In this document: one piece after another, positions 29,233 to 63,823 of the stretch | Numbering within the stretch: position 1 is the first letter of the stretch | Layout: every line of letters begins with the position of its first letter | DNA from: Aphrocallistes beatrix | Taxonomy: Eukaryota; Porifera; Hexactinellida; Sceptrulophora; Aphrocallistidae | DNA: 64,000 nucleotides | Direction of reading: 5' to 3' | Assembly (NCBI GenBank): GCA_963281255.1 | Contig: OY725488.1 | Location: 9,459,524-9,523,523, forward strand | Notes under the pieces: generated by a model | What the model was told of the DNA's origin: nothing | Databases searched by the model: none | What the model saw: only the letters and a program-made list of their open reading frames with translations | Translations under genes and position numbers: made by a program

Positions 29233-30268
29233 ATGGCAACAGCAGATCCAGGATCTGGTCCTGTTAGTTTATTCTGAGTGCGTAACAAACTCCAGAATAA
29301 ATGAACTCGTTTAGAGAAGTGATTGAAAGGAAGAAGTTAGAAGTAAGAAGAGTTACAGCAAAGAAATGAGAAGTCTTATCGAAAAGAAAGAAGAGATTAT
29401 CAGAGAATTGAATGCTATCTGGGAAGAAGTGAATACTAGAATTGAGAAGAAGAAAATTGAAACTCAGAAAAAACTCGAAAAAATGGAAGAGCACAGGAAA
29501 GGAATGGAAAATATTTTTCGCGAACTAAATCCTACTTCTATCACATTTTCTCAATTTTCTGATACCATTGATTCTGTAAAAAGGGAAATGGATATTGATA
29601 TTCCTAATGTGAAGTTAACGTGGAGAATGGATGAATTGAAAGATTGTATAAATAGAATGTGTCGTTGTGATCAACAGATTCTAGTTTATAGCGAAGATAC
29701 TCGGTATCAACTGAAATGGAGTAATTGCGAGGAAGGAAGTGGAGACAATCAACTCTATAATCCATGTAGTATAGCGACTAATCCTATGAATGAGAATATT
29801 TATGTAACTGACCAATCGAATCACAGAGTTCAGATTTTCTCTAGAGAAGGAGAACGGATCAGATCTGTGAAAAATAGCGAAATTAAATATGCACAAAATA
29901 TTTTATTTCACAACCAATCAATTTACGTACAATGTTATATAAAGATTCTAAAATTGAATCAATTTACTGGGAAGAAAGAAAAGTCTAAATATTGTGATTT
30001 TAGTCTCAGAGGTATCTGTACAGATAATATTCATATTTATGTCGGCCAACTGACTGGAATGAATATAATAGTGTTAACTCTAGATTTGATTGAAAAAAAG
30101 AAAATATCTCTCAAGAGTGAATTCTGTCAACAAGATACTGAAATCAGAGATATATCTCTATCTCAAGGATTGTTTTACATTTTGCTATTCAAAAATGAAT
30201 TTCCAATTCAATCATTTTCTAGGGAAGACATTCTGACAAGATGTGATATTAAGAAAGATACCATTGAC
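29233..30268 (+). pseudogene. coiled-coil/NHL gene copy N1, broken
   Basis: Starts MATADPGSGPVSLF like the other copies, then GGA has become TGA (29275-29277). A 1-bp loss (near 29297) and a 2-bp gain (near 29354) follow, and the frame reopens at 29366. The coiled coil and NHL blades read normally until about 30268, where the copy is cut by a dispersed repeat (TTTTAGTGCAGCTCC) and the C-terminal blades are missing. Blade residues at the variable sites are N/C-S (NQLYNPCS), YIK and LT. Confidence 0.88.
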
Positions 30269-30470
30269 TGTGTTTTTAGTGCAGCTCCTATAGGGAGATG
30301 CCCTTATTGCATGGACGGAGTATCTCGTCCATCCGCAAAGCTCCAATAATTTCTTTCAAATAGCTAAAATTTCACATTTTAAGTCAATGACATTTAATTT
30401 ATACAAATAGAAAATGAATTTGTAGCTGTAACAAATTCATTTTCTACACAATCATTAAACTCACTATATA
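30269..30470. repeat. dispersed repeat end replacing the N1 3' end
   Basis: TTTTAGTGCAGCTCC(TATAGG)GAGATGCC sequence shared with 13895-13930 and 18605-18635, followed by NHL-spacer DNA like 62085-62200. This junction removed the last blades of N1. Confidence 0.6.
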
Positions 30471-31048
30471 CAGGGTGTCTCAAAAGTTCTGCAACGAATT
30501 TTGCTAATGTATTATACATAGTAGATAAATATCGAACATCCAATGCCTCATTTTAATCAAAAATAGAGAGGATTATCTTAATTATTTTCCATCCCAATGG
30601 CCTGTATTTCTCAATTTATTTGCAATGATGGATCATATATTTCATTGTCTCGTAAAGAATATTAAAAAATCTCACATCCCAGGTACATTTTATGGTTATA
30701 CTTTAAAAATACTCGTTCTTATCGAAGATTACTGCTACATAAATCAAAAGTAATAATATTATTTTAGTATTATGAATCATTTACAGATATGGAAGTGATT
30801 GATGTAATATTTCACTAGAAAAATAGTGATCTTCAAAATTAGCACTTTTGAGCTCGAAATTTTGGAGTAATTAGTCTGTAATTATTTAAAATTTTATAAG
30901 AATTGTTTTTTGAGTAATGGGTTGAGCTCATTTCTATGCTAGAAGGATACTAGATTTCATTTACGGAGGCTAATTTGGAATACAATCAAGTGATCTTAGT
31001 CAAATTAACGAAGTAAAATTGGTTGTTGCAGAATTTTGAGACACCCTG
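30471..31048. mobile_element. 578-bp Tc1/mariner-type MITE
   Basis: Ends CAGGGTGTCTCAAAAGTTCT and the complement of CAGGGTGTCTCAAAATTCTG; TATA at both flanks. The paralogous spacer at 62195 lacks it (empty site). No transposase. Confidence 0.85.
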
Positions 31049-31269
31049 TATATGTAGGTTTTTAACTGAATAATTCTTCATCAAGGTTACATATTCCAAT
31101 ATTCAATACCGTATGCCACTAGTCACACGTCATCACACACAATATAAGATGGCATTAGTGGTGCAATGTAGAACAATTAAACGTATTTAAGCTTGGGAGC
31201 AATTCGATTGAAAGACCATATGTAAAGGTCAATAGAGAATACGAATTTGAAGCTAAATTAAGTATATTA

Positions 31270-31755
31270 TCCTTACTATTAAAACTCGATTAATCTGTGT
31301 GTATGTGTGTATATATATATATATCTCTGTAACGAAATGATTGAAGAAACTGCCCGGCACAGAAAGCTGATTTTTGGCATGTAGGAGTCTTTTGGCTATG
31401 GCTCCAGTAAGTTCTGAGCTCAGACGAAAATGTCGACTCATCATGGAATTATGACGTCATTGTCACATTTTTAAAAGTTAAGCAACTAACACGTCTCACA
31501 TATGATGCAACTATCATCAAAAAATGAAGACTCATCACTCTGCTATGACGTCATCATTACTCATCAAATTTTTAAAAATTGACAAATTTGGTGTTTTTTC
31601 GAGTGATATCGATTTTAAAACTAAGATGGACATATTTAGAGATGATATATATCCCGTTTAATTAATCAATGTCACCTCCAGGCGACCGAAGGGAGCCTCC
31701 GGCGGACACAAAGTGTCCGCCAGCTGCGCAGCGCAAGCAAGCGAAGCGCGCTTGT
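31270..31755 (+). mobile_element. Helentron-like element H2, empty site known
   Basis: From TCCTTACTATTAAAACTCG to the GC-rich GCAAGCAAGCGAAGCGCGCT end. The paralogous spacer near 62412 (TATATTGTACCAATG) is uninterrupted, placing the insertion between two T residues as Helentrons do. The body matches H1 (11610-12674). Confidence 0.7.
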
Positions 31756-31889
31756 ACCAATGAAGCTATAAAAGATTTGTATTGAAAATATTTGTGTTAC
31801 GAATAATTTTGGTTGGACCTTGTATGTAGTGTACACTGGACTTATCTGTACTGATCTAATGTCTAAAAATAGAATCATATTTACAGTGT

Positions 31890-32057
31890 GGAGTGTAATG
31901 TAAGAAATATCTCAGAAACTATAGTCCTATGTAATAGTATAGTATTTCACAGAGATTTTATTATTAATACACTGAATAGAATTAAACTGCTTAATTCTCT
32001 GTAGAGCAAACTTAATCTATTTGATCTGTTCATAATTGAAATAAGAGCGAACAAATA
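31890..32057 (+). promoter_or_regulatory. conserved NHL-gene upstream region
   Basis: About 165 bp directly upstream of the ATG are conserved before N2, N3, N4, N6, N7, N8 and partly N1 and N9. Shared words are GTAAGAAATATCTCAG, AGTATAGTATTTCACTG, TGCTTAATTCTCTGTAGAGC and TGTTCATAATTG, then the leader GAACAAATAATGG. Probably promoter and 5' UTR. No canonical TATA box at a fixed distance. Confidence 0.5.
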
Positions 32058-33323
32058 ATGGCAACAGCACATCCAGGATCTGGTCCTGTTAGTTTATTCG
32101 GAGAGAGCAGCAACAAACTCCAGAATAAAGTGAACTCGTTTAGAGAAGTGATTGAAAGGAAGAAGTTGGAAGTAAGAAGAGTCAGCAAAGAAATGAGAAG
32201 TCTTATCGAAAAGAAGGAAGAAGAAATAATCCGAGAATTGGACACTATCTAGCAAGAATTGAATACTAGAATGGAGAAGAAAAAAATGGAAACTCATAAA
32301 AAACTTGAAACGATTGAGGAGTACAGGAAAGGAATGGAAAATATTTTCCGCGAATTAAATCCCACTTCGAGTCCATTTTCTCAAATTTCTGATGCCATTG
32401 ATTCAGTGAAAAGAGAAATGGATATTGATATTCCTAATGTGAAGTTAACGTGGAGAGTGGATGAATTGAAAGATTGTATAAATAGAATGTGTCAATGTGA
32501 TCAACAGATTCTAGTTTATAATGAAGATACTCGGTATCAACTGAAATGGAGTAAGTGCGACAGAGGAAGTGGAGACAATCAACTCTATTATCCATGGGGT
32601 ATAGCGACTAATCCTATGAATGAGAATATTTGTGTAGCTGACCAATGGAATCACAGAGTTCAGATTTTCTCTAGAGAAGGAGAATGGATCAGATCTGTGA
32701 AAGATGAAATGGAATATCCACGAAATATTCTATTTCACAACCAATCAATTTACGTGCAATGTAGCAAAGCAATTCTGAAATTGAATGAATCTACTGAGAA
32801 GAAAGAAAAGTCTAAATCTTATGATTTTAGTCTCAGAGGTATCTGTACAGATAATATTCATATTTATGTCGGCCAATGGTTGGGAATGAATCTAATAGTG
32901 TTAACTCTAGATTTGATTGAAGAAAACAGAATATCTCTCAATACTGAATTCTGTAAACAAGATACTCTAATCAGAGATATATCTCTATTTCAAGAATTGT
33001 TTTATATTTTGTTATTCAATACAGAATTTCCAATTCAAGCATTTTCTAGAGAAGGCATTCTGACAAGATGTGTTGTTGAGAAAGATAGCATTAACAGTGC
33101 TTATTGTTTCTGTCTAGATCAGCAACACAACATCTTAGTAGCAGACTGTGGAGACTCTAAAGTGAAGATATTTTCCAATGGAGGGAAGCTACTCACTCAG
33201 TTCGGTGAGAAAGGACAGTTCTCTAGTCTTACTGGTATTTCTCTTTTTCAACATGATTGTATCATTACAACAGATTGCGTAAGGCGCCGAGACAAACTTC
33301 AACTTTTCTATCCTATTTATTGA
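32058..33323 (+). pseudogene. coiled-coil/NHL gene copy N2, one nonsense codon
   Basis: 421 codons in one frame from MATAHPGSGPVSLFGESSNKL to the common end LQLFYPIY, broken only by TAG at codon 65 (32250-32252) where others have Trp (DTIWEE). Everything else, including the coiled coil (15-110) and NHL blades, is intact. Variable residues: YY-P, SK, WL, C, CVRR. It could be an allele-level null or sequencing error. Downstream of the stop a frame without the N-terminal half of the coil remains. Confidence 0.85.
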
Positions 33324-36300: not shown

Positions 36301-36687
36301 GGTGGCATTAGTGGTATAAGATGATACAGTTTGAAATTAGAATAGAAAATAAGAACTTGGAGCTAAATAAAGTTTATTTTTCTAAAGAAGCTTGAAAGAT
36401 TGGTTGCAAAAATTTAGTTTGTTTTGAATACATTTGGTGAGGCCGTATAACTATGACTACTTGGCTATATGAAATTAATGATAAAAATAGAAATATATAT
36501 ATATATATATATAGATATAGTGTAGAGTGTAATGTAAGAAATATCCCATAATTATAGTCCTATGCAAGAGTATAGTATTTCACTGCGATTTTCTTATTAA
36601 TACATATTGATTCAATTGAATTGCTAAATTCTCTGTTAGAGCAAATCTATTTATTCTATTCATAATTGAAATAATAACGAACAAATA
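33324..36687. other. NHL-array spacer 1
   Basis: No gene. It contains modules that recur in other spacers: GGCGTTGCTAAGGTGTC (33730), AAGCAATCATCCAGATACAT (34567, 35852), and an internal duplication (34250-34600 resembles 35330-35900). A partial GC-rich cassette lies at 34655-34876. An AT microsatellite is at 36492-36513, and the conserved NHL upstream region starts near 36520. Confidence 0.6.
34655..34876 (+). repeat. GC-rich gene-remnant cassette, copy 1 (partial)
   Basis: Shares GTCTGATCCCATACTTAAG, then CTCCTCTCCTGCTGACCTC, then a decayed NHL 3' tail (GGTATTTCTCTTTTCAGCTT and ACAACAGATTATGTGAAGAG) with the cassettes at 39170, 42595 and 47650. It ends after GGGGACCTGGACAAGAG. Confidence 0.6.
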
Positions 36688-37964
36688 ATGGCAACAGAAG
36701 ATCCAGGATCTGGTCCTGTTAGTTTATTCGGAGTGAGTAACAAACTCCAGAGTAAAGTGAACTCGTTTAGAGAAGTGATTGAAAGGAGAAGTTGGGAGTA
36801 AGAAGAGTCAGCAAAGAAATGAGAAGTCTAATCGAAAAGAAAGAAGAAGCAATAATCCAAGAATTAGACACTATCTGGGAAGAAGTGAATGCTAGAATGG
36901 AGGGAAAGAAAACTGAAACTCAGAAAGAAATTGAAGATATTGAGGCCTGCAAGTTAGAAATGGAGAAAAAGTTCAAAAAATTAAATCCAACATCAAAACC
37001 TAAAATCGATATTTCGGATTCAATCGATTCTGTGAAAAGAGAAATGGATATTGATATTCCTAATGTGAAGTTAACGTGGAGAATGGATGAATTGAAAGAT
37101 TGTATAAATAGAATGTGTCGTTGTGATCAACAGATTCTAGTTTATAATGAAGATACTCGGTATCAACTGAAATGGAGTAAATGCGAGGAAGGAAGAGGAT
37201 ACAATCAACTCTATCTTCCATGGGGTATAGCGGCTAATCCTATGAATGAGAATATTTATGTAGCTGACCAATGGAATCACAGAGTTCAGATTTTCTCTAG
37301 AGAAGGAGAATGGATCAGATCTGTGAAAAATGACGAAATGAAAAATCCACAAAATATTCTATTTTACAACCAATCAATTTACGTACAATGTCATGCAGCA
37401 ATTCTGAAATTGAATGAATCCACTGAGAAGAAAGAAAAGTCTAAATCTTATGATTTTAGTCTCAGAGGTATCTGTACAGATAATATTCATATTTATGTCG
37501 GCCAATGGTTGGGAATGAATCTAATAGTGTTAACTCTAGATTTGATTGAAGAAAACAGAATATCTCTCAAGACTGAATTTTGTCAACAAGACACTCAAAT
37601 CAGAGATATATCTCTATCTCAAGAATTGTTCTACATTTTGCTAATCAATACAGACTTTCCAATTCAAGCATTTTCTAGAGAAGGCATTCTGACAAGATGT
37701 GTTGTTAAGAAAGATAGCATTAACTGTGCTTATTGTTTCTGTCTAGATCAGCAACACAACATCTTAGTAGCAGACTTTGGAGATTCTAAAGTGAAGATAT
37801 TTTCCAATGAAGGGAAGCTACTCACTCAGTTCGGTGAGAAAGGATCTGAGAAGGGACAGTTCTCTAGTCTTACTGGTATTTCTCTTTTTCAACATGATTG
37901 TATCATTACAACAGATCTTGTAAAGAAGCGAGCCAAACTTCAACTTTTCTATCCTATTTATTGA
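36688..37964 (+). pseudogene. coiled-coil/NHL gene copy N3, one frameshift
   Basis: The ATG at 36688 opens MATEDPGSGPVSLFGVSNKL. A single A is missing near 36786 (GAAAGGAGAAG for GAAAGGAAGAAG), and the frame is then open from 36792 to the normal stop. The coil segment after residue 75 (EIEDIEACKLEMEKKFKKL) differs from most copies, suggesting exchange of a coil cassette. Variable residues: YL-P, HA, WL, F, LVKK. Confidence 0.85.
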
Positions 37965-40840: not shown

Positions 40841-42108
40841 ATGGCAACAGCAGATCCAGGATCTGGTCCTGCTAGTTTATTCGGAGTGAGTAACAAACTC
40901 CAGAATAAAGTGAACTCGTTTAGAGAAGTGATTGAAAGGAAGAAGTTGGAAGTAAGAAGAGTCAGCAAAGAAATGAGAAGTCTAATCGAAAAGAAAGAAG
41001 AAGCAATAATCCGAGAATTGGACACTATCTGGGAAGAAGTGAATGCTAGAATAGATAAAAAGAAAACTGAAACTCAGAAAAAACTCGAAACAATTGGAGA
41101 GTACAGGAAAGGAATGGAAAATATTTTTCGCGAATTGAATCCCACTTCTATTCCATTTTCTCAAATTTCTGATTCCATTGATTCAGTAAAAAGAGAAATG
41201 GACATTGATATTCCTAATGTGAAGTTAACGTGGAGAGTGGATGAATTGAAAGATTGTATAAATAGAATGTGTCGTTGTGATCAACAGATTCTAGTTTATA
41301 ATAAAGATACTCGGTATCAACTGAAATGGAGTAAATGCGAGGAAGGAAGAGGAGACAATCAACTCAATGATCCATGGAGTATAGCGACTAATCCTATGAA
41401 TGAGACTATTTATGTAGCTGACCAATGGAATCACAGAGTTCAGATTTTCTCTAGAGGAGGAGAATGGATCAGATCTGTGAAAGATGACGAAATGGAATCT
41501 CCAGTAAATATTGTATTTCACAACCAATCAATCCACGTACAATGTTGTAACGCAATTCTGAAATCCACTGAGAAAAATGAAAAGTCTAAATCTTATGATT
41601 TTATCTCAGAGGTATCTGTACAGATAATATTCTTATTTATGTCGGCCAATGGGAGGGAATGAATCTAATAGTGTTAACTCTAGATTTGATTGAAGAAAAC
41701 AGAATATCTCTCAAGACTGAATTCTGTGAACAAGATACTCAAATCAGAGATATATCTCTACCTCAAGAATTGTTTTATATTTTGCTTTTCAATACAGACT
41801 TTCCAATTCAAGCATTTTCTAGAGAAGGCATTCTGACAAGATGTGTTGTTAAGAAAGATAGCATTAACTTTGCTTTTTGTTTCTGTTTAGATCAGCAACA
41901 CAACATCTTAGTAGCAGACGATGGAGACTCTAAGGTGAAGATATTTTCCAATGAAGGGAAGCTACTCACTCAGTTCGGTGAGGAAGGATCTGAGAATGGA
42001 CAATTCTCTAGTCTTACTGGTATTTCTCTTTTTCAGCATGATTGTATCATTACAACAGATTTTGTAAAAACCAAATTCAAACTTCAACTTTTCTATCCTA
42101 TTTATTGA
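40841..42108 (+). pseudogene. coiled-coil/NHL gene copy N4, one frameshift
   Basis: Frame open from the ATG to about codon 255. A 9-bp in-frame loss (near 41560) and a 1-bp loss (TTTTATCTC for TTTTAGTCTC, near 41604) shift it, and the rest continues in another frame to LQLFYPIY. Coiled coil intact. Variable residues: ND-P with WS, CN, WE, D, FVKT. One base would separate it from an intact gene, so a sequencing error should be excluded first. Confidence 0.85.
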
Positions 42109-45399: not shown

Positions 45400-45568
45400 T
45401 ATGCATTGAATTGAATTGAATTGCTTAATTCTCTGTGAAACAAAAATTTAAATGTACAAATAGAAAAATAGCACATTTCACACGTTATCACCACACTTAA
45501 GCCTAAAATATTTATTAATTAATTTTCCTCGGAATTTTTTTAACTCCCGTAAATTGACTTTGTCAAAT

Positions 45569-45636
45569 TACGGAAATAAATTGCTGGGTCCGTTTATACG
45601 GAAATAAATTGCTGGGTCCGTTTATACGGACCCTTG
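45569..45636 (+). repeat. tandem duplication, ~33-bp unit x2
   Basis: TACGGAAATAAATTGCTGGG followed by TCCGTTTATACGG occurs twice in a row. TCCGTTTATACGGA is itself near-palindromic. Confidence 0.75.
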
Positions 45637-46228
45637 AAGTGATGTTAAATACTTTTGATATAATAATTTGATTGAAGATGTGCATTTATGGTTGAGAAAT
45701 TTAGGGTGGGATTTCCCCCATCTTCCTTGAGATTGCGATATGATGCACTACAGCTTATCCATTAGGATGCATGAACAAATTAAAATTATCACAGATAACA
45801 TTATTATGGTTGTAAAGTCGCTATACACGTTGCATACAAAGTCGCATCGAATACTTCAACACACAAGATATAAAAAAAGTTGTTTGCAACATTTCGACAT
45901 ACATACCGATACAACTTAGTTGCATTAAAAAGGTTGCTTTGCGTATGATGACCTCTAAGGAGTGGAGAGGGACGATACCAAACATACTCTGTGTAGAACT
46001 ATTCTGTGGTCCAATTCTTGCCGTTGAGGGAAGGAAGCTGTCATTTACAATCATGCCTACTGGCGGTGTTCTCGATCACGAGAATCAACACGAGCTGCAA
46101 AACTAATAGTTAATGGAAAACGGAGGGATTAATTTCCTAGGTTTAAAACCCGCCTACATTATGTGATTATTAGCCGTGAACGATCATACTTTAAAGTATG
46201 TATTGGAGATAGGGTGTAATGTTGTCGA

Positions 46229-47165
46229 TTCTGCGAAAAGAGAAATGGATATCGATATTCCTAATGTGAAGTTAACGTGGAGAGTGGATGAATTGAAAGA
46301 TTGTATAAATATAATGTGTCGTTGTGATCAACAGATTCTAGTTTATAATGAAGATACTCGGTATCAACTGAAATGGAGTAAATGCGACAGAGGAAGTAGA
46401 TACAATCAACTCTCTGGTCCATGGGGTATAGCGACTAATCCTATGAATGTGAATATTTATGTAGCTGACCAATGGAATCACAGAGTTCAGATTTTCTCTA
46501 GAGAAGGAGAATGGATCAGATCTGTGAAAGATGACGAAATGAAATATCCACGAAATATTCTATTTCACAACCAAAGAATTTACATAAAATGTATCGCAGC
46601 TATTCTGAAATTGAATGAATCCACTGAGAAGAAAGAAAAGTCTAAATCTTATGATTTTGATCTCGGAGGTATCTGTACAGATAATATTCATATTTATGTC
46701 GGTCAATCGAAAGGAATGAATTTAATAGTGTTAACTCTACATTTGATTGAAGAAAACAGAATATCTCTCAAGACTGAATTCTGTCAACAAGACACTGAAA
46801 TCAGAGATATATCTCTATCTCAAGAATTGTTTTACATTTTGCTATTCAGTACAGAATTTCTAATTCAAGCATTTTCTAGAGAAGGCATTCTGACAAGATG
46901 TGTTGTTAAGAAAGATAGCATTAACTGTGCTCATTGTTTCTGTATCGATCAGCAACACAACATCTTAGTAGCAGACTATGGAGACTCTAAAGTGAAGATA
47001 TTTTCCAATGAAGGGAAGCTACTCACTCAGTTCGGTGAGAAAGGATCTGAGAAAGGACAGTTCTGTAGACTTATTGGTATTTCTCTTTTTCAACATGATT
47101 GTATCATTACAACAGATTGTGGAAAGACCCGAGACAAACTTCAACTTTTCTATCCTATTTATTGA
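46229..47165 (+). pseudogene. NHL gene copy N5, 5' half missing
   Basis: Homology starts abruptly at about residue 113 (DSAKREMDIDIPNVKLTW); the whole N-terminal coiled coil and the conserved promoter are absent. The upstream open codons begin at GTG, not ATG; the first in-frame ATG is at 46245. All NHL blades are intact to the common C-terminus. Variable residues: SG-P, IA, SK, Y, CGKT. It is a propeller-only remnant and possibly a donor for gene conversion. Confidence 0.85.
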
Positions 47166-50067: not shown

Positions 50068-51344
50068 ATGGCAACAGCAGATCCAGGATCTGGTCCTGTT
50101 AGTTTATTCGGAGTGAGTAACAAACTCCAGAGTAAAGTGAATTCGTTTAGAGAAGTGATTGAAAGGAAGAAGTCTGAAATTAGAAGAGTCAGCAAAGAAA
50201 TGAGAAATCTTATCGAAAAAAAAGAAGAATCAATCATCCGAGAATTGGATGCTATTTGGGAAGAAGTGAATACTAGAATGGAGAAGAAGAAAACTGAAAC
50301 TCAGAAAAAGCTCGAAACAATGGAAGAGCACAGGAAAGGAATGGAAAATATTTTTCGCGAATTAAATCCCACTTCGATTCTATTTTCTCAAATTTATGAT
50401 GCCATTGATTCAGTGAAAGAGAAATAGACATTGATATTCCTAATGTGAAGTTAACGTGGAGAATAGATGAATTGAAAGATTGTATAAATAGAATGTGTCG
50501 TTGTGATCAACAGATTCTAGTTTATAATAAAGATACTCGGTATCAACTGAAATGGAGTAAATGCGAGGAAGGAAGAGGAAACAATCAACTCTATCATCCA
50601 TGGGGTATAGCGACTAATCCTATGAATGAAAATATTTATGTAGCTGACAAATGGAATCACAGAGTTCAGATTTTCATTAGAGAAGGAGAATGGATCAGAT
50701 CTGTGAAAGATGACGAAATGAAATATCCAGAAAATATTCTATTTCACAACCAATCAATTTACGTACAATGTGATACAGCAATTCTGAAATTGAATGAATC
50801 CACTGAGAAGAAAGAAAAGTATAAATCTTATGATTTTATTCTCAGAGCTATCTGTACAGATAATATTCATATTTATGTCGGTCAATGGGAGGGAATGAAT
50901 CTAATAGTGTTAACTCTAGATTTGATTGAAGAAAACAGAATATCTCTCAAGACTGAATTCTGTCAACAAGATACTGAAATCAGAGATATATCTCTACCTC
51001 AAGAATTGTTTTACATTTTGCTATTCAATACAGAATTTCCAATTCAAGCATTTTCTAGAGAAGGTATTCTGACAAGATGTGTTGTTAAGAAAGATAGCAT
51101 TAACTATGCTGATTGTTTCTGTCTAGATCAGCAACACAACATCTTAGTAGCAGACTGTGGAGACTCTAAAGTGAAGATATTTTCCAATGAAGGGAAGCTA
51201 CTCACTCAGTTCGGTGAGAAAGGATCTGAGAAAGGACAGTTCTCTAGTCTTATTGGTATTTCTCTTTTTCAACATGATTGTTTCATAACAACAGATTATG
51301 TAAACAGCCGCGACAAACTTCAACTTTTCAATCCTAATTGTTGA
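50068..51344 (+). pseudogene. coiled-coil/NHL gene copy N6, one frameshift
   Basis: Open from the ATG to codon ~117. One A is lost (GTGAAAGAGAAATAG for GTGAAAAGAGAAATGG, near 50416) and Met is changed to Ile, after which the NHL part is fully open to a slightly different end (LQLFNPNC). Variable residues: YH-P, DT, WE, C, YVNS. It also carries DKWNHR for DQWNHR and FILRAI for FSLRGI. Confidence 0.85.
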
Positions 51345-53496: not shown

Positions 53497-54780
53497 ATGG
53501 CAACAGCAGATCCAGGATCTGGTCCTGTTAGTTTATTCGGGGTGAGTAACAAACTCCAGAATAAAGTGAACTCGTTTAGAGAAGTGATTGAAAGGAAGAA
53601 GTTTGATGTAAGAAGAGTCAGCAAAGAAATGAGAAATCTTATCGAAAAGAAAGAAGAATCAATAATCCGAGAATTAGACACCATCTGGGAAGAAATAAAT
53701 TCTAGAATTGAGAAGAAGAAAACTGAAATTCAAAGGCACATTCGAGAACTAGAGAGTAAGAAAAAGGAGATGGTTGAAATTCTTCGAAAGTTCAATCCAA
53801 CTGAAACACAATTCCCTCAAGTTTCTGAAGCAATAGAAAGAGCGAAGAATGAAATGGATATAGATATTCCTAATGTGAAGTTAACGTGGAGAGTAGATGA
53901 ATTGAAAGATTGTATAAATAGAGTGTGTCGTTGTTCAACAGATCAACAGATTCGAAAGTATAATGAAGATACTCGGTATCAACTGGAATGGAGTAAGTGC
54001 GAGGAAGACATTGGACACAATCCACTCTATCGCCCATGGGGTGTAGCGACTAATCCTATGAATGAGAATATTTATGTAGCTGACCAATGGAATCACAGAG
54101 TTCATACTTTCTCTAGAGAAGGAGAATGCATCAGATCTGTGAAAGATGGCGTAATGAAAAATCCAGAAAATATTCTATTTCACAACCAATCAATTTTCGT
54201 ACAATGTCATAGAGCAATTCTGAAATTGAATGAATCCACTGGGAAGAAACAAAAGTCTAAATCTTATGATTTTTATCTCGGAGGTATCTGTACAGATAAT
54301 ATTCATATTTATGTCAGTCAATGTAATGAGATGAATCTAATAGTGTTAAGTCTAGATTTGATTGAAGAAAACAGAATATCTCTCAAGACTGAATTCTGTA
54401 AACAAAATACTCAAATCAGAGATATATCTCTATCTCAAGAATTGTTCTACATTTTGCTAATCAATACAGACTTTCCAATTCAAGCATTTTCTAGAGAAGG
54501 CATTCTGACAAGATGTGTTGTTAAGAAAGATAGCATTAACAGTGCTTATTGTTTCTGTCTAGATCAGCAACACAACATCTTAGTAGCAGACTTTGGAGAC
54601 TCTAAAGTGAAGATATTTTCCAATGAAGGGAAGCTACTCACTCAGTTCGGTGAGAAAGGAGCTAAGAAAGGACAGTTCTCTAGTCTTATTGGTATTTCTC
54701 TTTTCCTGCATGATTGTATTATTACAACAGATGATTTAAAGACCCGAGACAAACTTCAACTATTCTATCCTATTTATTAA
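53497..54780 (+). CDS. coiled-coil/NHL propeller protein N7, the only intact copy
   Basis: 427 aa, uninterrupted. Residues 15-115 form a long charged coiled coil, like the BBC region of TRIM-NHL proteins, but there is no RING or B-box. A linker (MDIDIPNVKLTW, 120-131, and a Cys cluster 139-146) leads into NHL-type blades: NPMNENIYVADQWNHRV (186-202), FHNQSIFVQCHRAIL (228-241), TDNIHIYVSQCNEMNLIVL (267-284), QQHNILVADFGDSKVKIF (358-374), HDCIITTDDLKTRDKL (405-420). It is probably a cytosolic recognition or adaptor protein; TRIM-NHL propellers bind RNA or protein by their exposed faces. The loop residues just after each blade's AD/QC/SQ/TD step differ between paralogues. Its coil segment 78-118 and a two-residue insertion (CRCSTDQQ) are unlike most copies. 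Confidence 0.85.
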   Translation: MATADPGSGPVSLFGVSNKLQNKVNSFREVIERKKFDVRRVSKEMRNLIEKKEESIIRELDTIWEEINSRIEKKKTEIQRHIRELESKKKEMVEILRKFNPTETQFPQVSEAIERAKNEMDIDIPNVKLTWRVDELKDCINRVCRCSTDQQIRKYNEDTRYQLEWSKCEEDIGHNPLYRPWGVATNPMNENIYVADQWNHRVHTFSREGECIRSVKDGVMKNPENILFHNQSIFVQCHRAILKLNESTGKKQKSKSYDFYLGGICTDNIHIYVSQCNEMNLIVLSLDLIEENRISLKTEFCKQNTQIRDISLSQELFYILLINTDFPIQAFSREGILTRCVVKKDSINSAYCFCLDQQHNILVADFGDSKVKIFSNEGKLLTQFGEKGAKKGQFSSLIGISLFLHDCIITTDDLKTRDKLQLFYPIY

Positions 54781-54885
54781 CAATAACCTTTTTTTAATAT
54801 CAACTTTTGTTTATTAGTTCTTGTAATATTTTTCTCTGTAATAATCTCTCTTTTTATTATTTAATTCCGTTTTATTTTATCGCTT

Positions 54886-54918
54886 CCTGAGCCTCGTGGC
54901 CTTCCTCTTCCAGTGCCT
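54886..54918 (+). repeat. LMF2 fragment at the duplication breakpoint
   Basis: About 33 bp (GGCCTTCCTCTTCCAGTGCCTG with a preceding CCTGAGCCTCGT) match the interior of the LMF2 coding region (25965-26000), placed directly before the start of the duplicated LMF2 block. It looks like filler copied during the duplication. Confidence 0.65.
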
Positions 54919-55031
54919 GATATTACCCAGTACACTCATTCCATATGCGTAATCCTGTATCTTAGCACAGAGAGTATGGCATTACCCAGTACACTCATTC
55001 CTGTGCATAGCTCCCACCGACTAGCACAGAG

Positions 55032-57020
55032 ATGAGCAGAGTGGTGAACACGACACAAGCAGTGCTGTGGCTGGTGTCGGCTGCCTACCTCTCCGCCTTC
55101 CTCTCCCTCTTCTTCCAAGTCCCGGGCCTCTACGGACCCAGAGGAGTGCTGCCCGTGCACACGCAGCTCCCGCCCAACTCAGACCCCTTCCTGTCCAACT
55201 GGCAGTCCCGCCCCATGCTCCTCTGGCTCTCCTACGCGGCGGGACTGGACCCCTCCTCAGGAATGTTGATCCTAACTCTGGCGGGAACGGCGCTCAGATT
55301 CCTCACTCTGATCGCGCGTAAGGCGCGTTCCCCGCTCATTTACCTGGCGCTCTACCTGCTGTACTTGTCCCTGCACCAAGGGGGCGGGGTCTTCCTCTGG
55401 TTCCAGTGGGACACCCTGCTCCTGGAGACGGGCTTCCTGGCGGTCTTCCTCGCGCCCCTCGAGCCTCTCCTCCTGCTGCCCCCCGCCCTCAGGCCCTGGG
55501 ACCGCCTGAAGCTGTGAGTGGTCCGCTGGCTGGCCTTCAGACTCGTCTTCTGCTCGGGCGTCGTGAAGCTGAGCGCCGGGTGTTCCACGTGGTGGGGGCT
55601 CACGGCCCTCCAGACTCACTTCGAGTCGCAGTGCATCCCCTCACAGCTGGGATGGGCGCTGCATCAGATGCCTGAGTGGGTTCTGAGACTCTCCGTGGTG
55701 CTCACTTTCTTCACGGAGGTCGCGACCCCGCTCCTCTTCCTGGCGCCTTCCCGCCTCCTGAGAGTGGTGGCCTTCCTCTTCCAGTGCCTGCTCGTGCTCG
55801 GGATAAACCTGTCCGGGAACTACAACTTCTTCGGGATCCTCACGCTCGCCGTTTCCTTCGCTCTCCTGGACGATGACCTGCTGTCCCCCCTGTCCTCCAA
55901 GGGGCGCAGGGGGTGGCTGTCCCTCCTGGACTACACGGTGGTCTCCTCCCTGGCGCTGTCCGTGTGTGGGTACCAGCTGGTGTCCCTCTTCGGCCTCCAG
56001 CTGTCCCTGGAGCCTCTGCAGCTCAACTCCTCCGTCGCCTTCACGCAGGAGGAGTGGGACCAGTGGGTGGCCTGGGTGGTCCCGCTCACGGTCTGGACGG
56101 GACAACTCTAGCTCCTCTACGAGGTCTCCTCCGCCGTCCTCCGCTCGCTGCTGGAAGCCAGCGGACTGCTCTCCAAGCTCCTCAGTGTGTCCGCGTCCTG
56201 CGTCTACTCGGTGCTGGGTCTGCTCCTCTTCCTGCACTCCCTCCCCTCCTACGCCCAGATAGCCCCCCAGTTCCGCGCCTCTCTCCCCGCGGTCCTGCTC
56301 TCCTGGGAGCGGGCCCTCTTCCCGTACGGCGTCGCGTCCGCCTACGGACCCTTCAGACGCATGACCGGGGTGGGGGGTCGGCCTGAGGTGGTGCTGGAGT
56401 GGAGCGGCCAGCTGGAGGGGGACTGGCACGAGTTCGAGTTCCGCTACAAACCGGGAAACGTCTCAAGAGCGCCGCCGTTCCTGGCCCCGCATCAGCCCCG
56501 GCTGGACTGGCAGATGTGGTTCGCAGCGCTCTCCACCTATCAGCGCGCGCCCTGGGTGGTCCAGCTGATCAACAGACTCCTGCACAACGAGTCTACCGTC
56601 CGCGCTCTCCTCAAGAACCCGACCGACCGTCCAGAGTTCGTCCGCGCCTCTCTCTACCTCTACCACTTCGAGGGAGAGGGAGAGGACTGGTGGTGGAGGG
56701 AGAGGAAGGAGGGGTTCGTGCCTCCCCTCACACAGGACCACAAGACCGTGGTGGAGTTCCTGAAGAACGCCGGAATGTGGAGTGAGACCGCTGCTGGCGA
56801 CTCTGCTGCTGACAGATTAATCTACAAGTTCTATTGGTCAGTGCAGGACATGGTGTCTCCTCATGTGGCTATCTGGGCCGCATTCCTGCTGGCTCTCTCT
56901 GTTGTTACAGCAAGCTCTGCCACGGCTGGGTGTGGGAAATGTGTCGGTACGCTTGTGCCATTTGCGACACTTTTAAGTGTGGCAGCTGTCTGCTACCTCC
57001 TAGCTCGATCTGCTGGCTGA
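55032..57020 (+). pseudogene. lipase maturation factor 2-like, copy with two stops
   Basis: Exactly 1989 bp, like the intact gene, with no indel. Two Trp codons are stops: codon 162 TGA (55515-55517) and codon 360 TAG (56109-56111), both TGG with one G-to-A change. About 30 amino-acid changes spread over the protein (for example PSLLW to PMLLW, GCPAWW to GCSTWW, SPYG to FPYG) suggest relaxed constraint. The C-terminal LDWQMWFAAL region is intact. Start context and ~110 bp of 5' flank are shared with the intact copy. It would give a 161-aa product without the conserved core. Confidence 0.92.
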
Positions 57021-57534
57021 GATTAGAACTTGTTTACTTAGTTAGCCAATCAATTATGTTTCTTTAAGTATATGCAACTTTGGTAACTTCAGTTTTACGC
57101 GTCAGTTTACGATTCTATTAAATTAGAATACAATGTTTCTAAAAATAGATCTAATCATTCGTTTTTCTAGTGCATTATTTACTACAAAGCAAAATGAATC
57201 AAGGAAAATCTCTTTCCTCTTCATTAGATATATTTATACATATTTGAGCCGAGAATTCTAATCTAACTGACCTCCATTTCCAATACATATATTCGAGAAC
57301 AATTAATTATTTGAATACTTGAATACACATCTTGAAATCGGATAGAAAACTGATGACTTTGGTTATAGATTCAAACGATATAGAGTAGTACAGCCGTAGA
57401 TTGCAAAGTATAGCAACGTCAGTGAATTACAGAAGAACAACTTTGTAGCGACTTAAGTGTATATTTAATCTACTCATTAAATTAATGTTTGATTCCATCC
57501 CCGATTAATTATATTTTAAGAAAGCGGGTCAGTT
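57021..57534. other. 3' flank of the LMF2 pseudogene, duplicated
   Basis: Matches 27232-27755 with small indels. Nothing else seen. Confidence 0.55.
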
Positions 57535-57676
57535 TAGTAGAATTTAATTGTTCTCAACAAGAAAGGTACAGTTGAGTTAGATCAAGAATACAGCAATAAG
57601 CTTCTAACTACTCTAGAATGAGCTGAACTAGTGACAAGGTGTTAAAGAGTTAGTTAGTTGAGGGTGGAGTTGTCAT

Positions 57677-57826
57677 CTAACCTCCGATAGGCAAATCCAT
57701 AGGGTTAACCGGCAGATCGATACGTCCGATCGGTAGATCGATAGGGGTGAGCACATCGAGGTGTGTGGAGAGAACTTCCTTCCGAGAAGAGTTCTTGTTG
57801 GAAGAGCTGAGCTGTTTGCCAATCAT
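57677..57826 (-). CDS. 49-aa palindrome ORF, copy 2L
   Basis: Same frame length as the palindrome 1 ORFs. Starts MIGKQLSSSNKNSSRKEV; the repeat part is PIDLPI, GRIDLPV, NPMDLPIGG. It differs from copy 1L only in the repeat part: T to G, A to N and F to M. Unknown function. Confidence 0.6.
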   Translation of the reverse strand: MIGKQLSSSNKNSSRKEVLSTHLDVLTPIDLPIGRIDLPVNPMDLPIGG

Positions 57827-57931
57827 CTTACTGCTGAGTTAGTAGTTGAGAAGAGAGAGTAAAGTTGAGTGGAGTGGAGAGATGATTGGAGTGTATTCTT
57901 GATCGAACTGATCTCACTCCGAAACCGTTCT

Positions 57932-57939
57932 TATTTATA
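57932..57939 (-). promoter_or_regulatory. TATA box, palindrome ORF 2L
   Basis: TATAAATA on the minus strand with the same TATA-Inr-ATG spacing as in palindrome 1 (first T at 57939; ATG at 57826). Confidence 0.65.
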
Positions 57940-58093
57940 CTCGTGTGCGTTGCTAAGTTGCTGATTGAGGTATGCCGAGTGGCAGGCTTAATCCAATGCT
58001 GCATTGTAGAATGCCTGTCCACTTGAATTCAATGCATTGGATTCAGTCTGCCACTCGACATACCACAATCAGCAACTTAGCAACGCACACGAG

Positions 58094-58101
58094 TATAAAT
58101 A
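58094..58101 (+). promoter_or_regulatory. TATA box, palindrome ORF 2R
   Basis: TATAAATA from 58094, GATCAGTTCGATC Inr 30 bp downstream, ATG at 58207. Confidence 0.65.
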
Positions 58102-58206
58102 AGAATGGATTCGGAGTGAGATCAGTTCGATCAAGAATACACTCCAATCATCTCTCCACTCCACTCAACCTTACTCTCTCTTCTCAACCACTAACTCAGC
58201 AGTAAG

Positions 58207-58356
58207 ATGATTGGCAAACAGCTCAGCTCTTCCAACAAGAACTCTTCTCGGAAGGAAGTTCTCTCTACACACCTCGATGTGCTCACCCCTATCGATCTAC
58301 CGATCGGACTTATCGATCTGCTGGTTAACCCTATGGATTTACCTATCGGAGGTTAG
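58207..58356 (+). CDS. 49-aa palindrome ORF, copy 2R
   Basis: Starts MIGKQLSSSNKNSSRKEV and ends PMDLPIGG; the middle reads PIDLPI, GLIDLLV, N. Against copy 2L it has R to L and P to L in the second repeat, so the two arms are not fully homogenised here. Frame length is conserved. Unknown function. Confidence 0.6.
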   Translation: MIGKQLSSSNKNSSRKEVLSTHLDVLTPIDLPIGLIDLLVNPMDLPIGG

Positions 58357-58582
58357 ATGACAGCTCCACCCAACAACTAACTCACTAACACCTTGTCACT
58401 AGTTCAGCTCATTCTAGAGTAGTTAGAAGCTTATTGCTGTATTCTTGATCTAACTCAACTGTACCTTTCTTGTTGAGAACAAATTAAATTCTACTAAACT
58501 GACCCGTTTTCTCTAATTGGGAATTTATGGTGAATATGGTAACTTGGTAACTTAGGGAACTAGCTTGCTATCTTACTACGAC

Positions 58583-58627
58583 GCAGTGTCCGCAAGCCGC
58601 GCAGCGCAAGTAAACGATGCGCGCTTG
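58583..58627 (+). mobile_element. solo Helentron-like 3' end
   Basis: GTGTCCGCAAGCCGCGCAGC followed by GCAAGTAAACGATGCGCGCT matches the GC-rich termini at 12674, 31755, 43459 and 61836. No body is attached; the paralogous place near 28800 lacks it. Confidence 0.6.
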
Positions 58628-58921
58628 TATACTAGAAATTGAGTTAAGGTATGTTTTAAGAATTCTAGTTAGATTTTCCAGATTTCACACAACCGTGACT
58701 TAAGTTATAATAGTAAGACCAGTTCACTTCAAGGAAAATGTGAGCATGGATGTCATCGAAGTATTTGAAAGTTAAAAAAAAATATTTTAGAAACTGTAGT
58801 CCAATGTAAGATTATAATATTTCACTGGGATGTTATTATGCAATGAGTTGAACTGCTTAATTCTCTGTAGAGCAAACTTAATATTTTTATCTGTTCATAA
58901 TTGGAATACTTACAAAGAAAT

Positions 58922-60199
58922 ATGGCAACAGCAGATCCAGGATCTGGTCCTGTTAGTTTATTCGGAGTGAGGAACAAACTCCAGAGTAAAATGAACTCGT
59001 TTAGAGAAATGATTGAAAGGAAGAAGTTGCAAGTACGAAGAGTGAGCAAAGAAATGAGAAGTCTTATCGAAAAGAAAGAAGAAGAAATATTCCGAGAATT
59101 GGATTCTATTTGGGAAGAAGTGAATACTAAAATGGAGAAGAAGAAAGCTGAAACTCGAAAAAACTCGAAAAAATGGAAGAGCACAGGAAAGGATTGGAAA
59201 ATATTTTTCGCGAACTAAATCCTACTTCTATCACATTTTCTCAATTTTCTGATACCATTCATTCTGTAAAAAGGGAAATGGATATTGATATTCCTAATGT
59301 GAAGTTAACGTGGAGAATGAATGAATTGAAAGATTGTATAAATAGAATGTGTCGTTGTGATCAACAGATTCTAGTTTATAGCGAAGATACTCGGTATCAA
59401 CTTAAATGGAGTAAATGTGAGGAAGGAAGAGGAAACAATCAACTCCATCATCCATGTGGTGTAGCGACTAATCCTATGAATGAGAATATTTGTGTAGCTG
59501 ACCAATGGAATCACAGAGTTCAGATTTTCTCTAGAGAAGGAGAATGGATCAGATCTGTGAAAGATGACGAAATGAAATATCCACAAAATATTCTATTTCA
59601 CAACCAATCAATTTACGTACAATGTAGTGAAGCAATTCTGAAATTGAATGAATCCGCTGAGAAGAAAGAAAAGTCTAAATCTTATGATTTTAGTCTCGGA
59701 GGTATCTGTACAGATAATATTCATATTTATGTCGGTCAATGTGAGGGAATGAATCTAATAGTGTTAACTCTAGATTTGATTGAAGTAAACAGAATGTCTC
59801 TCAAGACTGAATTCTGTCAACAAGATACTGAAATCAGAGATATATCTCTATCTCAAGAATTGTTTTACATTTTGCTGTTCAAAAATGAATTTCCAATTCA
59901 AGCATTTTCTAGAGAAGGCATTCTGACAAGATGTGTTGTTAATAAAGATAGCATTAACTGTGTTTTTTTGTTTCTGTCTAGATCAGCAATGCAACATCTT
60001 AGTAGCAGACAATGGAGACTCTAAAGTGAAGATATTTTCCAATGAAGGAGAGCTACTCGCTCAGTTCGGTGAGAAAGGATCTGAGAAAGGACAGTTCTCT
60101 AGTCTTTCTGGTATTTCTCTTTTTCAGCATGATTGTATCATTACAACAGATAATGTAAAGAGCAGAGACAAACTTCAACTTTTCTATCCTATTTATTGA
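58922..60199 (+). pseudogene. coiled-coil/NHL gene copy N8, two frameshifts
   Basis: ATG at 58922 with the usual MATADPGSGPVSLFGV. One A lost near 59160 (ACTCGAAAAAACTCG for ACTCAGAAAAAACTCG) and one T gained in a run near 59966 (GTGTTTTTTTG). Otherwise homologous to the common end. It is the paralogue of N1 in the duplicated block, but keeps its 3' end and lacks the hAT insertion upstream. Variable residues: HH-P with C, SE, CE, N, NVKS. The start was chosen at MATADP, since the upstream open codons begin at TTG. Confidence 0.85.
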
Positions 60200-60272
60200 A
60201 TAACTGGCACCAAGGAGATAGTTGTAAATTTAGAAAAATTTTTTTTTCATTTGCTATGTAGTAGTATTATTG

Positions 60273-60349
60273 TATAGGGTGACCCATAAGTTCTGTTACA
60301 AGCTTTATACCTAATGAAGCTTGTAACAGAACTTATGGGTCACCCTATA
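60273..60349. repeat. 77-bp hairpin with perfect 33-bp arms
   Basis: Arms 60273-60305 and 60317-60349 are exact reverse complements, starting TATAGGGTGACCCATAAG, with an 11-bp spacer. The ends resemble the CAGGGTGTC ends of the MITEs at 3340 and 30471, so it is probably a minimal mariner-type MITE that has lost its interior. It lies about 75 bp after the N8 stop, so an N8 transcript could carry the hairpin in its 3' UTR. Confidence 0.85.
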
Positions 60350-60922
60350 TATTAACGAAAACCTAAACGGGAAGGAGATAAGCCTGGGATATCCTATGTT
60401 ATAATCGTAGCTTCACATTTAATAGAAAGTTTATTTCTAATTGGGAGATCCAGATTTCATTCCTTACTGGAGTCTTAGTAATGTTCTGTCCCAATTAAGA
60501 ATATACCTACTTAATGCAAAATAATAGAATAATCTTGCATTCCAAAAAATCCTACTTAGTGCACCAAAGTAAGCATCAAAACATTTTCATTTACAATTTC
60601 TTTGGGGTCTACTAGCAATTTCGGGGTTACATATGGAGAGTATGAGAACAAATTTATTTTGTTCTTAGATTAATCAAGAAATTTATCATTTAATTATCAT
60701 AATGCGCCTATTTTTGACAGAATTTGCAATCAAAGCATAGAGATACTTTATAACTGACCTCAAATTAGTTAGTCCACATTGAAACTCTTCTCAGCTTTGA
60801 TATTTTAAGTTGGCTAATTATTTGTTCATATCCCAATTTTGTAGCGCCAGCTAAGAATATTATTACTCAGCGCAGAACAGTAACACAATCTACATTGTAA
60901 TATCTTTATCATATTGTAGGAA
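60350..60922. other. noncoding, nothing recognised
   Basis: AT-rich DNA with no frame or repeat that I can support. Confidence 0.5.
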
Positions 60923-61836
60923 TTATCTTATATATTAAAACGCTAGGATTTTTGTTTGTTTGTATGTTTGTCCGAATTGATTGAAAAATTGGCAAGTCGT
61001 GGAGATATGAAAATTGGCATGTAGGTGTCAAATGATATTACTACGATTAAGTTCTAAGATCTAAGGAAATTTTCACATCTCTGCAAAAAAAATGGAAAAC
61101 GATTTTTCGCACCTTTTCTATACAAAACAAATGACTACACTATCACAATAGAAATCATTGTACAAGTACGACACTACAATAAATAGATCGTCATTGTTAT
61201 TAATAATACTTCAAAGCCAATACTTATGTTTGATATCTTAAATGTATCATAGTGTATGGCTATAAAAAATATAATCTGCATATTTTCACACCATTTGATG
61301 AATTTTGAAAATAATGCTAGAGAATAGCTTCCAACGGGTGACTTGAGGTTTTCAGGGGTGTAGATTTCGAATATCATATTTTCAGATGTATATGATAAAT
61401 TGTTTGTTTACTTTTGTTTACATTGGATACATATTACATAAAGTAAACAAATCTCAAAAATATGCCAGAAACTTGCTTTAAACGGTTGACATGGGGTTTT
61501 CAGGGTTCTAAATTTTGAATATCATATTTTCGAGTAAATTTGATATCAATCTTTTTACTTTTGTTTACAAAAGTTACATAAAGTAAACAAATTACAAAAA
61601 TGGGCTAGAGTCTAGCTTCTAACGGTTGACATGGGGTTTTTAGTGCTGTAGATTTTGAATATTATATTTTCGGATCTATATGAGAAATTATTCGTCGACC
61701 TTTGTTTACAATATTTATTTAAATGAAAAGAAAATCCAAAATATGTTTGATTGAGTGACTCCAGGGGCCCGCAGGGTGACTCTGCGGACAAGCAGTGTCT
61801 GCAAGCCGCGCAGCGCAAGCAAGCGAAGCGCGCTTG
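60923..61836 (+). mobile_element. Helentron-like element H4
   Basis: 5' end TATCTTATATATTAAAACGC, body GAATTGATTGAAAAATTGGC, about three ~141-bp tandem units with ACGGTTGACATGGGGTTTT and TAAACAAA words (61320-61740), 3' end GCAAGCAAGCGAAGCGCGCT. It is the same subfamily as H3, opposite orientation, with fewer internal units. Confidence 0.6.
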
Positions 61837-62558
61837 TTGTATGTAAAATTATGAATAATCTAGTTCACCAAAAATAACAAATTTAATGTTTTTTATCAAT
61901 TTAATGCAATGAAAATCTAGAGTCTACTCTTTCTAATATACGTAAAATATGAAATATTTAATCAAAATATATGATATATTTATTACCGGGTAAATTAAAA
62001 AAATACTCGATATTCCAGACTTTTTGCCGGTACTATATATATGTATGTATGTATGTTCGCGAAACTTCAATAAAGGCCATTCAAACAGCTAAAATTTCGC
62101 ATATTATAAAGTCAATGGCATTTATTTGTTCAAATAGAAACTGAATTTATAACAGATACAAATTCATTTTCTACACAATCATTGAACTAACTATACAGGT
62201 TTTTAACTGAATAATTCTCCATCAAGGTTACATATTCCAATATTCAATACCGTATACCACAGTCACACGTCATCACACCCTATATAAGATAGCATTAGTG
62301 GTATAATGTGGTACAATTAAACATATTTAAGCTTAGGGAGCGATTCGGTTGAAAGACTACATGTAGAAGTGAATAGAGAATACGAATTTGAAGCTAAATT
62401 AAGTACGTATATTGTACCAATGAAGCTATAAAAGATTTGCATTGAAAATATTTGTGTTACGAATAATTTTAGCTGAACCTTGAATTGCTTAATTCTCTGT
62501 AGAGCAACCTTAATCTATTTGATCTGTTCATAATTGGAATAGTTACAAGCAGATAATA
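61837..62558. other. upstream region of NHL copy N9
   Basis: The stretch 62085-62480 is paralogous to 30355-31830 without the MITE and Helentron-like insertions found there, so it serves as an empty site for both. The conserved TGCTTAATTCTCTGTAGAGC leader precedes N9. A GTATGTATGTATGT microsatellite lies near 62042. Confidence 0.6.
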
Positions 62559-63823
62559 ATGGCAACAGCAGATCCAGGATCTGGTCCTGTTAGTTTATTC
62601 GGAGTGAGTAACAAACTCCAAAATAAAATGAACTCGTTTAGGGAAGTGATTGTAAGGAAGAAGTCTGAAATTAGAAAAGTGAGCAAAGAAATGAGAAGTC
62701 TTATCGAAAAGAAAGAAGAATCAATAATCAGAGAATTAGACACCATCTGGGAAGAAGTGAATGCTAGAATGGAGGAAAAGAAAAGTGAAATTCAGAAAAA
62801 GCTGGAAACAATTGAAAAGCACAGGAAAGAAATGGAAAATATTTTTTATGAATTGAAGCCCACTACAACTCCATTTTCTCAAATTTCTGATGCCACTGAT
62901 TCAGTAAAAAGAGAAATGGACATTGATATTCCTAATGTGAAGTTAACGTGGGGAATGGATGAATTGAAAGATTGTATAAATAGAATGTGTCTTTGTGATT
63001 AACAGATTCTAGTTTATAATGAAGATACTCGGTATCAACTGAAATGGAGTAAATGCGAGGAAGGAAGTGGAGACAATCAACTCTATCGTCCATGTGGTAT
63101 AACGACTAATCCTATGAATGAGAATATTTATGTAGCTGACCAATCGAATCACAGAGTTCAGATTTTCTCTAGAGAAGGAGAATGGATCAGATCTGTGAAA
63201 GATGACGAAATGAAATATCCACAAAATATTCTATTTCACAACCAATCAATTTACGTGCAATGTAGGAAAGTAATTCTGAAATTGAACGAATCCACTGAGA
63301 AGAAAGAAAAGTCTAAATCTTATGATTTTAGTCTCGGAGGTATCTGCACAGATAATATTTATATTTATATCGGGAAATATAGCGGAATGAATCTAATAGT
63401 GTTAACTCTAGATTTGATAGAAGAAAACAGAATATCTCTCAAGACTGAATTCTGTCAACAAGATCTCGAATCACTGATATATCTCTATCTCAAGAATTGT
63501 TCTACATTTTGCTAATCAATACTGAATTCCCAATTCAAACATTTTCTAGAGAAGGCATTCTGACAAGATGTGTTGTTAAGAAAGATCTCATTAATGGTGC
63601 TTATTGTTTCTGTCTAGATCAGCAACACAATATCTTAGTAGCAGACTGTGGAGACTCTAAAGTGAAGATATTTTCCAATGAAGGGAAGCTACTCACTCAT
63701 TTCGGTGAGAAAATTACGTGGTCATATCTTTCTGGCATTTCTCTTTTTCAACATGATTGTATCATTACAACAGATTATGCGAGGACCCGAGACAAACTTC
63801 AACTTTTCTATCCTATTTACTGA
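62559..63823 (+). pseudogene. coiled-coil/NHL gene copy N9, stop plus frameshift
   Basis: Open from MATADPGSGPVSLFGV to codon 147, where CAA is TAA (63000-63002). The same frame then resumes, and near 63465 a base is lost (AGATCTCGAATCAC for AGATACTGAAATCAG). The last part is open to LQLFYPIY but lacks part of the KGSEKGQF segment. Variable residues: YR-P with C, RK, YS, C, YART. Confidence 0.85.

Follow-up and report, generated by a model that had tools for sequence, protein, structure and literature searches.

A tandem coiled-coil NHL propeller family in the glass sponge Aphrocallistes beatrix, with hypervariable loop codons on a homogenised backbone

The stretch of DNA considered here, hereafter the window, comprises 64,000 nucleotides of the glass sponge Aphrocallistes beatrix (C1:9459524-9523523 of an assembly of 100.5 Mb in 28 contigs) and contains nine copies of one intronless gene of about 425 residues, which encodes a coiled coil followed by NHL repeats. 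All nine lie on the plus strand between 29.2 and 63.8 kb of the window. Only copy 7 (53497..54780; P0001) is both full length and intact; its open reading frame (ORF) of 427 residues is supported by Pfam and by an AlphaFold model, and is laid out as a coiled coil, probably of TRIM type, at about residues 18-142 and a six-bladed NHL propeller, the form typical of TRIM-NHL proteins, at about residues 157-427. The mean predicted local distance difference test score of the model is 83, with most of the propeller above 90. Most of the window copies are dead, as seven of the nine bear net frameshifts or stops and copy 5 (46176..47165), open in other respects, is missing its N-terminal part. Copy 1 (29233..30349) has several frameshifts and has lost its C-terminal portion, copy 2 (32058..33323) has a stop codon at residue 64, copy 3 (36683..37964) suffers an early frameshift and is open from residue 33 onward, and copy 4 (40841..42108) is shifted within the propeller. 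The frame of copy 6 (50068..51344) is broken in the coiled-coil half, that of copy 8 (58922..60203) in both coiled coil and propeller, and copy 9 (62559..63823) combines a stop codon with frameshifts.

The affinity of these proteins to the TRIM family is only partial. The TRIM_CC family (PF25600) matches P0001 weakly, at 22.8 bits against a cut-off of 30 bits, and is found at E<=0.001 in 31 of 76 scanned members; among the eight Pfam families matched by the 76 members there is neither a RING nor a B-box. Accordingly, we regard the family as TRIM-like rather than canonically TRIM, and perhaps derived from TRIM-NHL proteins. Clearly distinct forms of the last blade and C-terminus (FQHDCIITTD..., ELGDIVTVQ..., EFGSIVTVD...) are carried by otherwise similar genes in the arrays at C1 9.93-10.03 Mb, C1 9.48-9.75 Mb and C4, perhaps through exchange of 3' modules.

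A previous sequence-only reading of the window held that the nine copies are nearly identical, yet differ from one another, mostly by amino acid, at a few adjacent propeller codons. Counts over all pairs of the nine copies in codon register agree: at a set of 14 codons (178, 179, 198, 222, 224, 238, 239, 260, 276, 277, 349, 366, 396 and 398) 343 of 464 pair-cells are non-synonymous and three synonymous, compared with 865 non-synonymous and 307 synonymous among the 7394 pair-cells of the remaining propeller codons. Six-frame translation recovered the residues reported before the proline that precedes the first WG (N, Y, L, D, G, H, R, H and R in copies 1 to 9) and reproduced the lists given after YVGQ, LVAD and ITTD. 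The residues listed after QC (YIK, SKA, HAA, CNA, IAA, DTA, HRA, SEA and RKV) were likewise recovered, with the correction that copy 5 has KC in place of QC.

The same codons stand out in the wider family, for which we aligned a core of 49 members of 410-450 residues scoring above 600 bits to the intact window copy. Amino-acid entropy in this alignment peaks at scattered single codons of the propeller. In blade 1 these are codons 178-179 (54028..54033 in copy 7, plus strand, as are all coordinates that follow), in the loop before strand A, with 6 and 12 amino acids among the 49 paralogs, and codon 198 (54088..54090), in the loop between strands B and C, with 9. In blade 2, codons 222 and 224 (54160..54168; 9 and 6 amino acids) stand on either side of a proline, P223, that is unchanged in 76 of 76 members, and codons 238-239 (54208..54213; 13 and 9) occupy the B-C loop after QC. 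Blade 3 contributes codon 260 before strand A (54274..54276; 14 amino acids) and codons 276-277 in the B-C loop (54322..54327; 6 and 12). Blade 5 contributes codon 349 before strand A (54541..54543; 6 amino acids, also supported by the site model described below, its partner 351 being weaker) and codon 366 in the B-C loop after VAD (54592..54594; 8), which aligns with both Arg625 and Lys672 of human TRIM71. Finally, codons 396 and 398 before strand A of blade 6 (54682..54690; 10 and 12) align with TRIM71 Arg655 and Arg751. The combination of the 14 residues is different in each of the 49 members, with 5-14 differences per pair. The coiled-coil segment at about residues 76-115 and the last 15 residues are variable as well and were kept out of the set; the variation of the coiled coil extends to third bases. 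That the variable sites share one face of the propeller, as the sequence-only reading supposed, is supported by the predicted model, in which each blade has them just ahead of strand A or in the loop joining strands B and C; this assignment derives from the predicted model and the alignment rather than from coordinates. The variable loop residues are those flanking the proline of an xPxG motif, together with one or two after the AD/QC turn.

How far these codons depart from their background can be gauged in a single array of 19 genes (171 pairs). Bases 1 and 2 of the 14 codons diverge by 0.485, whereas third positions of propeller codons that specify the same amino acid diverge by 0.042 and bases 1 and 2 elsewhere in the propeller by 0.036; third positions of the coiled coil diverge by 0.122. 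The contrast of 0.485 with 0.042 is a measure whose expectation is independent of recombination, and it bears out the excess of non-synonymous change that had been proposed for the listed codons. Outside the gene, divergence is 0.13 upstream at the start codon and climbs to 0.43, and downstream it climbs from 0.21 to 0.44-0.48 (six full windows of comparison; a final three-column piece is 0), although the far flanks may be non-homologous. From the flanking and synonymous figures it follows that the propeller backbone is more alike than its surroundings and the 14 codons far more different. Moreover, among the 1176 pairs of the 49 members the proportion of the 14 codons at which two members disagree stays approximately flat, at 0.71-0.83, as backbone divergence grows. 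The two most similar members, C1_9933869 and C1_10018415, differ at 11 of 223 backbone codons, four of them non-synonymously, and at 10 of the 14 hypervariable codons, all non-synonymously.

The backbone also bears the marks of exchange among paralogs. In the C1 array (24 genes) r2 between common variants has dropped from 0.26 to 0.07 at separations of 120-250 bp, and C4 behaves similarly; identical tracts of up to 161 codons are shared between paralogs, one of which, of 76 codons, spans five variable codons. Linkage decay and identical tracts together indicate short-tract exchange, with variable codons carried along, so that the genes are mosaics.

Codon-based site models were run with our own FUBAR-like code on one full tree and on six segment trees. 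Posterior probabilities above 0.95 for positive selection were obtained at 20 of 241 propeller codons with the full tree and at 21 with the segment trees, with omega up to 37 and 57, respectively. This answers in part the suggestion that site models be applied to the family: the result is positive, but it is not proof, since this model yields false positives under gene conversion. For that reason we take per-codon diversity, the expectation of which is unaffected by recombination, as the evidence instead. Five neutral pools with omega 1 were simulated under gene conversion (third-position divergence 0.050-0.134). Among the 385 codons of each pool there was none with as many as 8 amino acids or 2.4 bits, the highest values being 5-7 amino acids and 1.61-2.26 bits. 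In the data, where third positions diverge overall by 0.074, 8-14 amino acids are seen at 12 of 241 propeller codons and at least 2.4 bits at 11; 10 of the 12 belong to the 14-codon set, the other two being 170 and 395. Four copies of a methyltransferase-like gene in the window offer a control, a weak one given so few copies: 13 of 258 columns show at least three amino acids, compared with about 20 of up to 241 columns in random NHL quartets.

The pattern recurs beyond the core family. For this comparison we laid out 22 loop positions in register with the residues of human TRIM71 that contact RNA, and 14 of the 20 sites selected by the site model fall on them. The nearest matches with a species name come from the glass sponge Oopsacas minuta, whose proteins share 42-47% identity; near-identical hits lie on separate contigs. 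Across 23 relatives at 42-47% identity, four of them from O. minuta, entropy averages 2.08 at the 22 positions versus 0.90 in the rest of the propeller, and each of the ten most variable positions belongs to the 22. In a second NHL subfamily (52 of 120 listed proteins), 19 of the 30 most variable positions listed lie in the propeller and 11 in the N-terminal half, and by our reading 17 of the 19 flank the proline of xPxG or follow an AD/QC-type turn. The relatives and the second subfamily are cleaner tests than a Fisher value computed on the 22 positions.

The family is large. Protein searches of the genome scored 98-101 of 1742-2144 candidates each, and the resulting counts are lower bounds: in the DNA examined, at least 82 ORFs of the family run to 200 residues or more, and 62 of these, the window's own included, to 395 or more, so that at least 61 long open copies lie outside the window. 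They are located on contigs C1, C4, C6, C9, C13, C16 and C18, and the second subfamily adds at least 103 matches, chiefly on C12, C3, C9 and C1. An NHL profile gave 3391 first-look candidates, of which all 150 that were scored exceeded the cut-off, and many of these occupy frames of about 420 codons; the genome may thus hold many hundreds of coiled-coil NHL genes. Twenty further proteins (P0003-P0022) are encoded on a separate contig of 418513 bases. Compared with the fetched ORFs, 18 of the 20 reach 80-88% identity, one 95.8% and one 99.5%, and P0010, one of the 20, finds a best identity of 85% in the whole genome. The array may be longer than it appears in the assembly, or haplotypes may differ. 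Near-identical protein pairs also occur between this genome and a separate assembly. P0007 and C1_9599944 are two residues apart and P0071 and C4_1080123 one, these differences including positions 349 and 351, and three other such pairs differ elsewhere; the differences are possibly allelic, or possibly errors. At C12:4253726-4265110, four copies of another coiled-coil NHL gene encode proteins that are 100% identical and are spaced by exactly 3380 bp, either because they were duplicated in tandem very recently or through an effect of the assembly.

Other repeated sequences adjoin the array in the window. A 3.7 kb segment containing an LMF1 (lipase maturation factor) gene and an inverted repeat with 338-nt arms occurs at 25147-28808 and again at 54937-58584, the two being 94.7% identical; the second sits within the NHL array and has its LMF1 frame split into several ORFs. 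The methyltransferase-like gene is present in five copies, one of them partial, on both strands between 10597 and 21743, with inverted arms 86-95% alike (Pfam was applied to two of the five copies). A run of exactly 200 N at 20184-20383 is probably a scaffold join, and the NHL array may reach beyond what the assembly shows. A THAP-domain ORF (22503-22862) and a Ras-family ORF (6144-6671) also lie beside the array, and Rfam and tRNA scans of the window gave no matches.

We consider it probable, at roughly 0.76, that these genes form a tandemly expanded recognition family shaped by diversifying selection on the top-face loops together with gene conversion. That combination is the likeliest mechanism, as in the HNWD receptors of fungi, because linkage decays within about 250 bp. 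Gene conversion among paralogs would keep the propeller backbone alike and mix short tracts, while diversifying selection would keep altering the top-face loop residues; with the backbone homogenised and the loops diversified, the scaffold would stay constant and the ligand-binding face would differ from gene to gene. Several points weigh against this account. Eight of the nine window copies are broken or truncated, the 14 codons were picked by eye from the list of alignment entropies, and the 22 loop positions were laid out after the sites had been seen, which makes their Fisher value too strong. The site model flags 16, 31 and 56 of 385 codons in gene-conversion pools simulated without positive selection, although these pools are less diverged than the data (third-position divergence 0.021-0.031). 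Codons 178, 224, 276 and 349, with 6 amino acids each, are in the neutral range for that measure; the neutral pools were single and mixed, lacking the subgroup structure of the real family; and 14 of 144 coiled-coil codons have at least 8 amino acids, likewise above the neutral pools. A rival reading is an absence of selection, with relaxed constraint, pseudogene decay or a recombination artefact of a repetitive array producing the pattern, for which the broken window copies and the behavior of the site model under conversion both speak. This explanation is nonetheless highly improbable and already contradicted by the 61 long open ORFs outside the window, by the failure of the omega 1 pools to attain the observed diversity, and by the variation of the same positions in diverged relatives and in the second subfamily.

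A further point against the favored account concerns third bases. At seven codons (178, 179, 222, 260, 349, 366 and 398) the third base is nearly frozen, and at several of these the first two bases come close to 2 bits; at 179, 260, 366 and 398 it is T in 48, 48, 48 and 49 of 49 members, with bases 1 and 2 widely variable. These third bases change less than a tree simulation of selection predicts, the expectation being 66.5 purine third bases when any amino acid is permitted and 26.2 when the choice is restricted to amino acids actually seen, against four observed. Such a pattern, along with the near saturation of the variable codons even in the closest pairs, would suit targeted mutation, in which an enzyme or templated copying rewrites bases 1 and 2 of set codons and the backbone is restored from templates, a process that would resemble a diversity-generating retroelement at work in the germ line of an animal. 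We nevertheless think this improbable. Counting distinct dinucleotides, the proper count if conversion shuffles codons, there are at least 59 changes at bases 1 or 2, and 7.2 third-base changes of amino acid are expected against four seen (P 0.16). Moreover, third bases do alter the amino acid at 198, 238, 276, 277 and 396, and over all 14 codons they diverge by 0.138 versus 0.042 at synonymous propeller positions. The distinct-variant count and these five codons therefore leave selection plus conversion sufficient. Nor is the substitution adenine-specific, as in diversity-generating retroelements, since conserved AAT codons adjoin variable ones; a template or reverse transcriptase was not searched for. 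General local hypermutation is also unlikely, as only 4 of 343 codons in the seven NNT columns end in C, whereas across 45 conserved two-fold columns the minor share averages 4.1%. A possible alternative as to the ligand, though a clearly less favored one, is that each copy binds a different RNA, whether viral, transposon-derived or self mRNA, through loops of the LIN41/TRIM71 type. Ten RNA-contact residues of human TRIM71, examined by mutation (PMC5908797), align to the variable loops, seven within the alignments and three by short extrapolation, and the RNA binders Lin41 and Brat are among the structural neighbors. NHL faces that bind RNA bear a strongly positive patch (PMC9070667), but at the 22 positions of the sponge proteins lysine and arginine make up 15.4% of residues, aspartate and glutamate 11.8% and aromatics 24%, with a net charge of -4 to +4 per protein. 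This mixed charge gives no particular pointer to the binding of RNA phosphate, and protein or mixed ligands would fit at least equally well.

Among known systems, the closest resemblance is to the HNWD family (het-d, het-e and het-r) of Podospora anserina, also a multigene family in concerted evolution with a beta-propeller recognition domain. As described in two papers (PMC1805685, PMC2873952), paired codons around a conserved residue atop the WD40 propeller are diversified there, a few per repeat, while the repeats are homogenised. The same working principle, top-face codons diversified on a homogenised propeller, is found in the sponge family, the face being assigned from the predicted model and alignment. 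In HNWD the WD40 domain is carried by NLR proteins and repeats are exchanged within and between loci; the sponge genes, in contrast, combine NHL repeats with a coiled coil, are exchanged among tandem copies, and belong to an animal. No NACHT, HET and WD40 architecture was found among the members scanned, whose Pfam families are limited to NHL, other propeller-like and coiled-coil types. The TRIM-NHL proteins TRIM71/LIN41, Brat, Thin and TRIM2/3 are few and conserved, whereas the sponge family forms large tandem sets with hypervariable faces and, in the 76 members, lacks the RING and B-box. In vertebrates, the finTRIM and TRIM5 families likewise diversify a ligand domain on a TRIM-type scaffold; that domain is B30.2 rather than NHL, and a RING is present. 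A tandem AIG1 cluster in Aphrocallistes vastus, a large and mostly single-exon expansion of possible immune genes (PMC10282587), shares the mode of expansion in a glass sponge and differs in protein family. NHL is not mentioned in the main texts of that report and one other glass-sponge genome paper, and one demosponge paper lists NHL among the domains in a figure legend on immune receptors. In the open-licence literature, preprints excluded, our searches for NHL expansions in sponges turned up no account of this family. Diversified multigene receptors are familiar, and the NHL scaffold is not reported for that use in the literature searched.

NHL domains are known mostly from conserved RNA-binding regulators, and the loops by which those regulators make contact appear here as the most variable part of the propeller. 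The proteins are probably intracellular, with a presumed cytoplasmic location, and the variable face would be the surface that touches a ligand; the function may be immune, allorecognitive or RNA-directed, and a role in the recognition of non-self, whether microbes or allogeneic tissue, would fit the pattern. Sponges branch near the base of the animals, and the tissue of glass sponges is syncytial. A far more speculative proposal, which we hold to be a long shot, is that glass sponges carry hundreds of coiled-coil NHL receptors as a germ-line repertoire, served by a dedicated diversifier of bases 1 and 2 with a backbone rewritten by conversion, and used perhaps in syncytial self-recognition; a dedicated diversifier, if real, would be an animal counterpart of programmed receptor diversification. 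If the genes indeed constitute a recognition repertoire, the NHL propeller would join the list of diversified receptor scaffolds and would provide a close animal parallel to the HNWD propellers of fungi.

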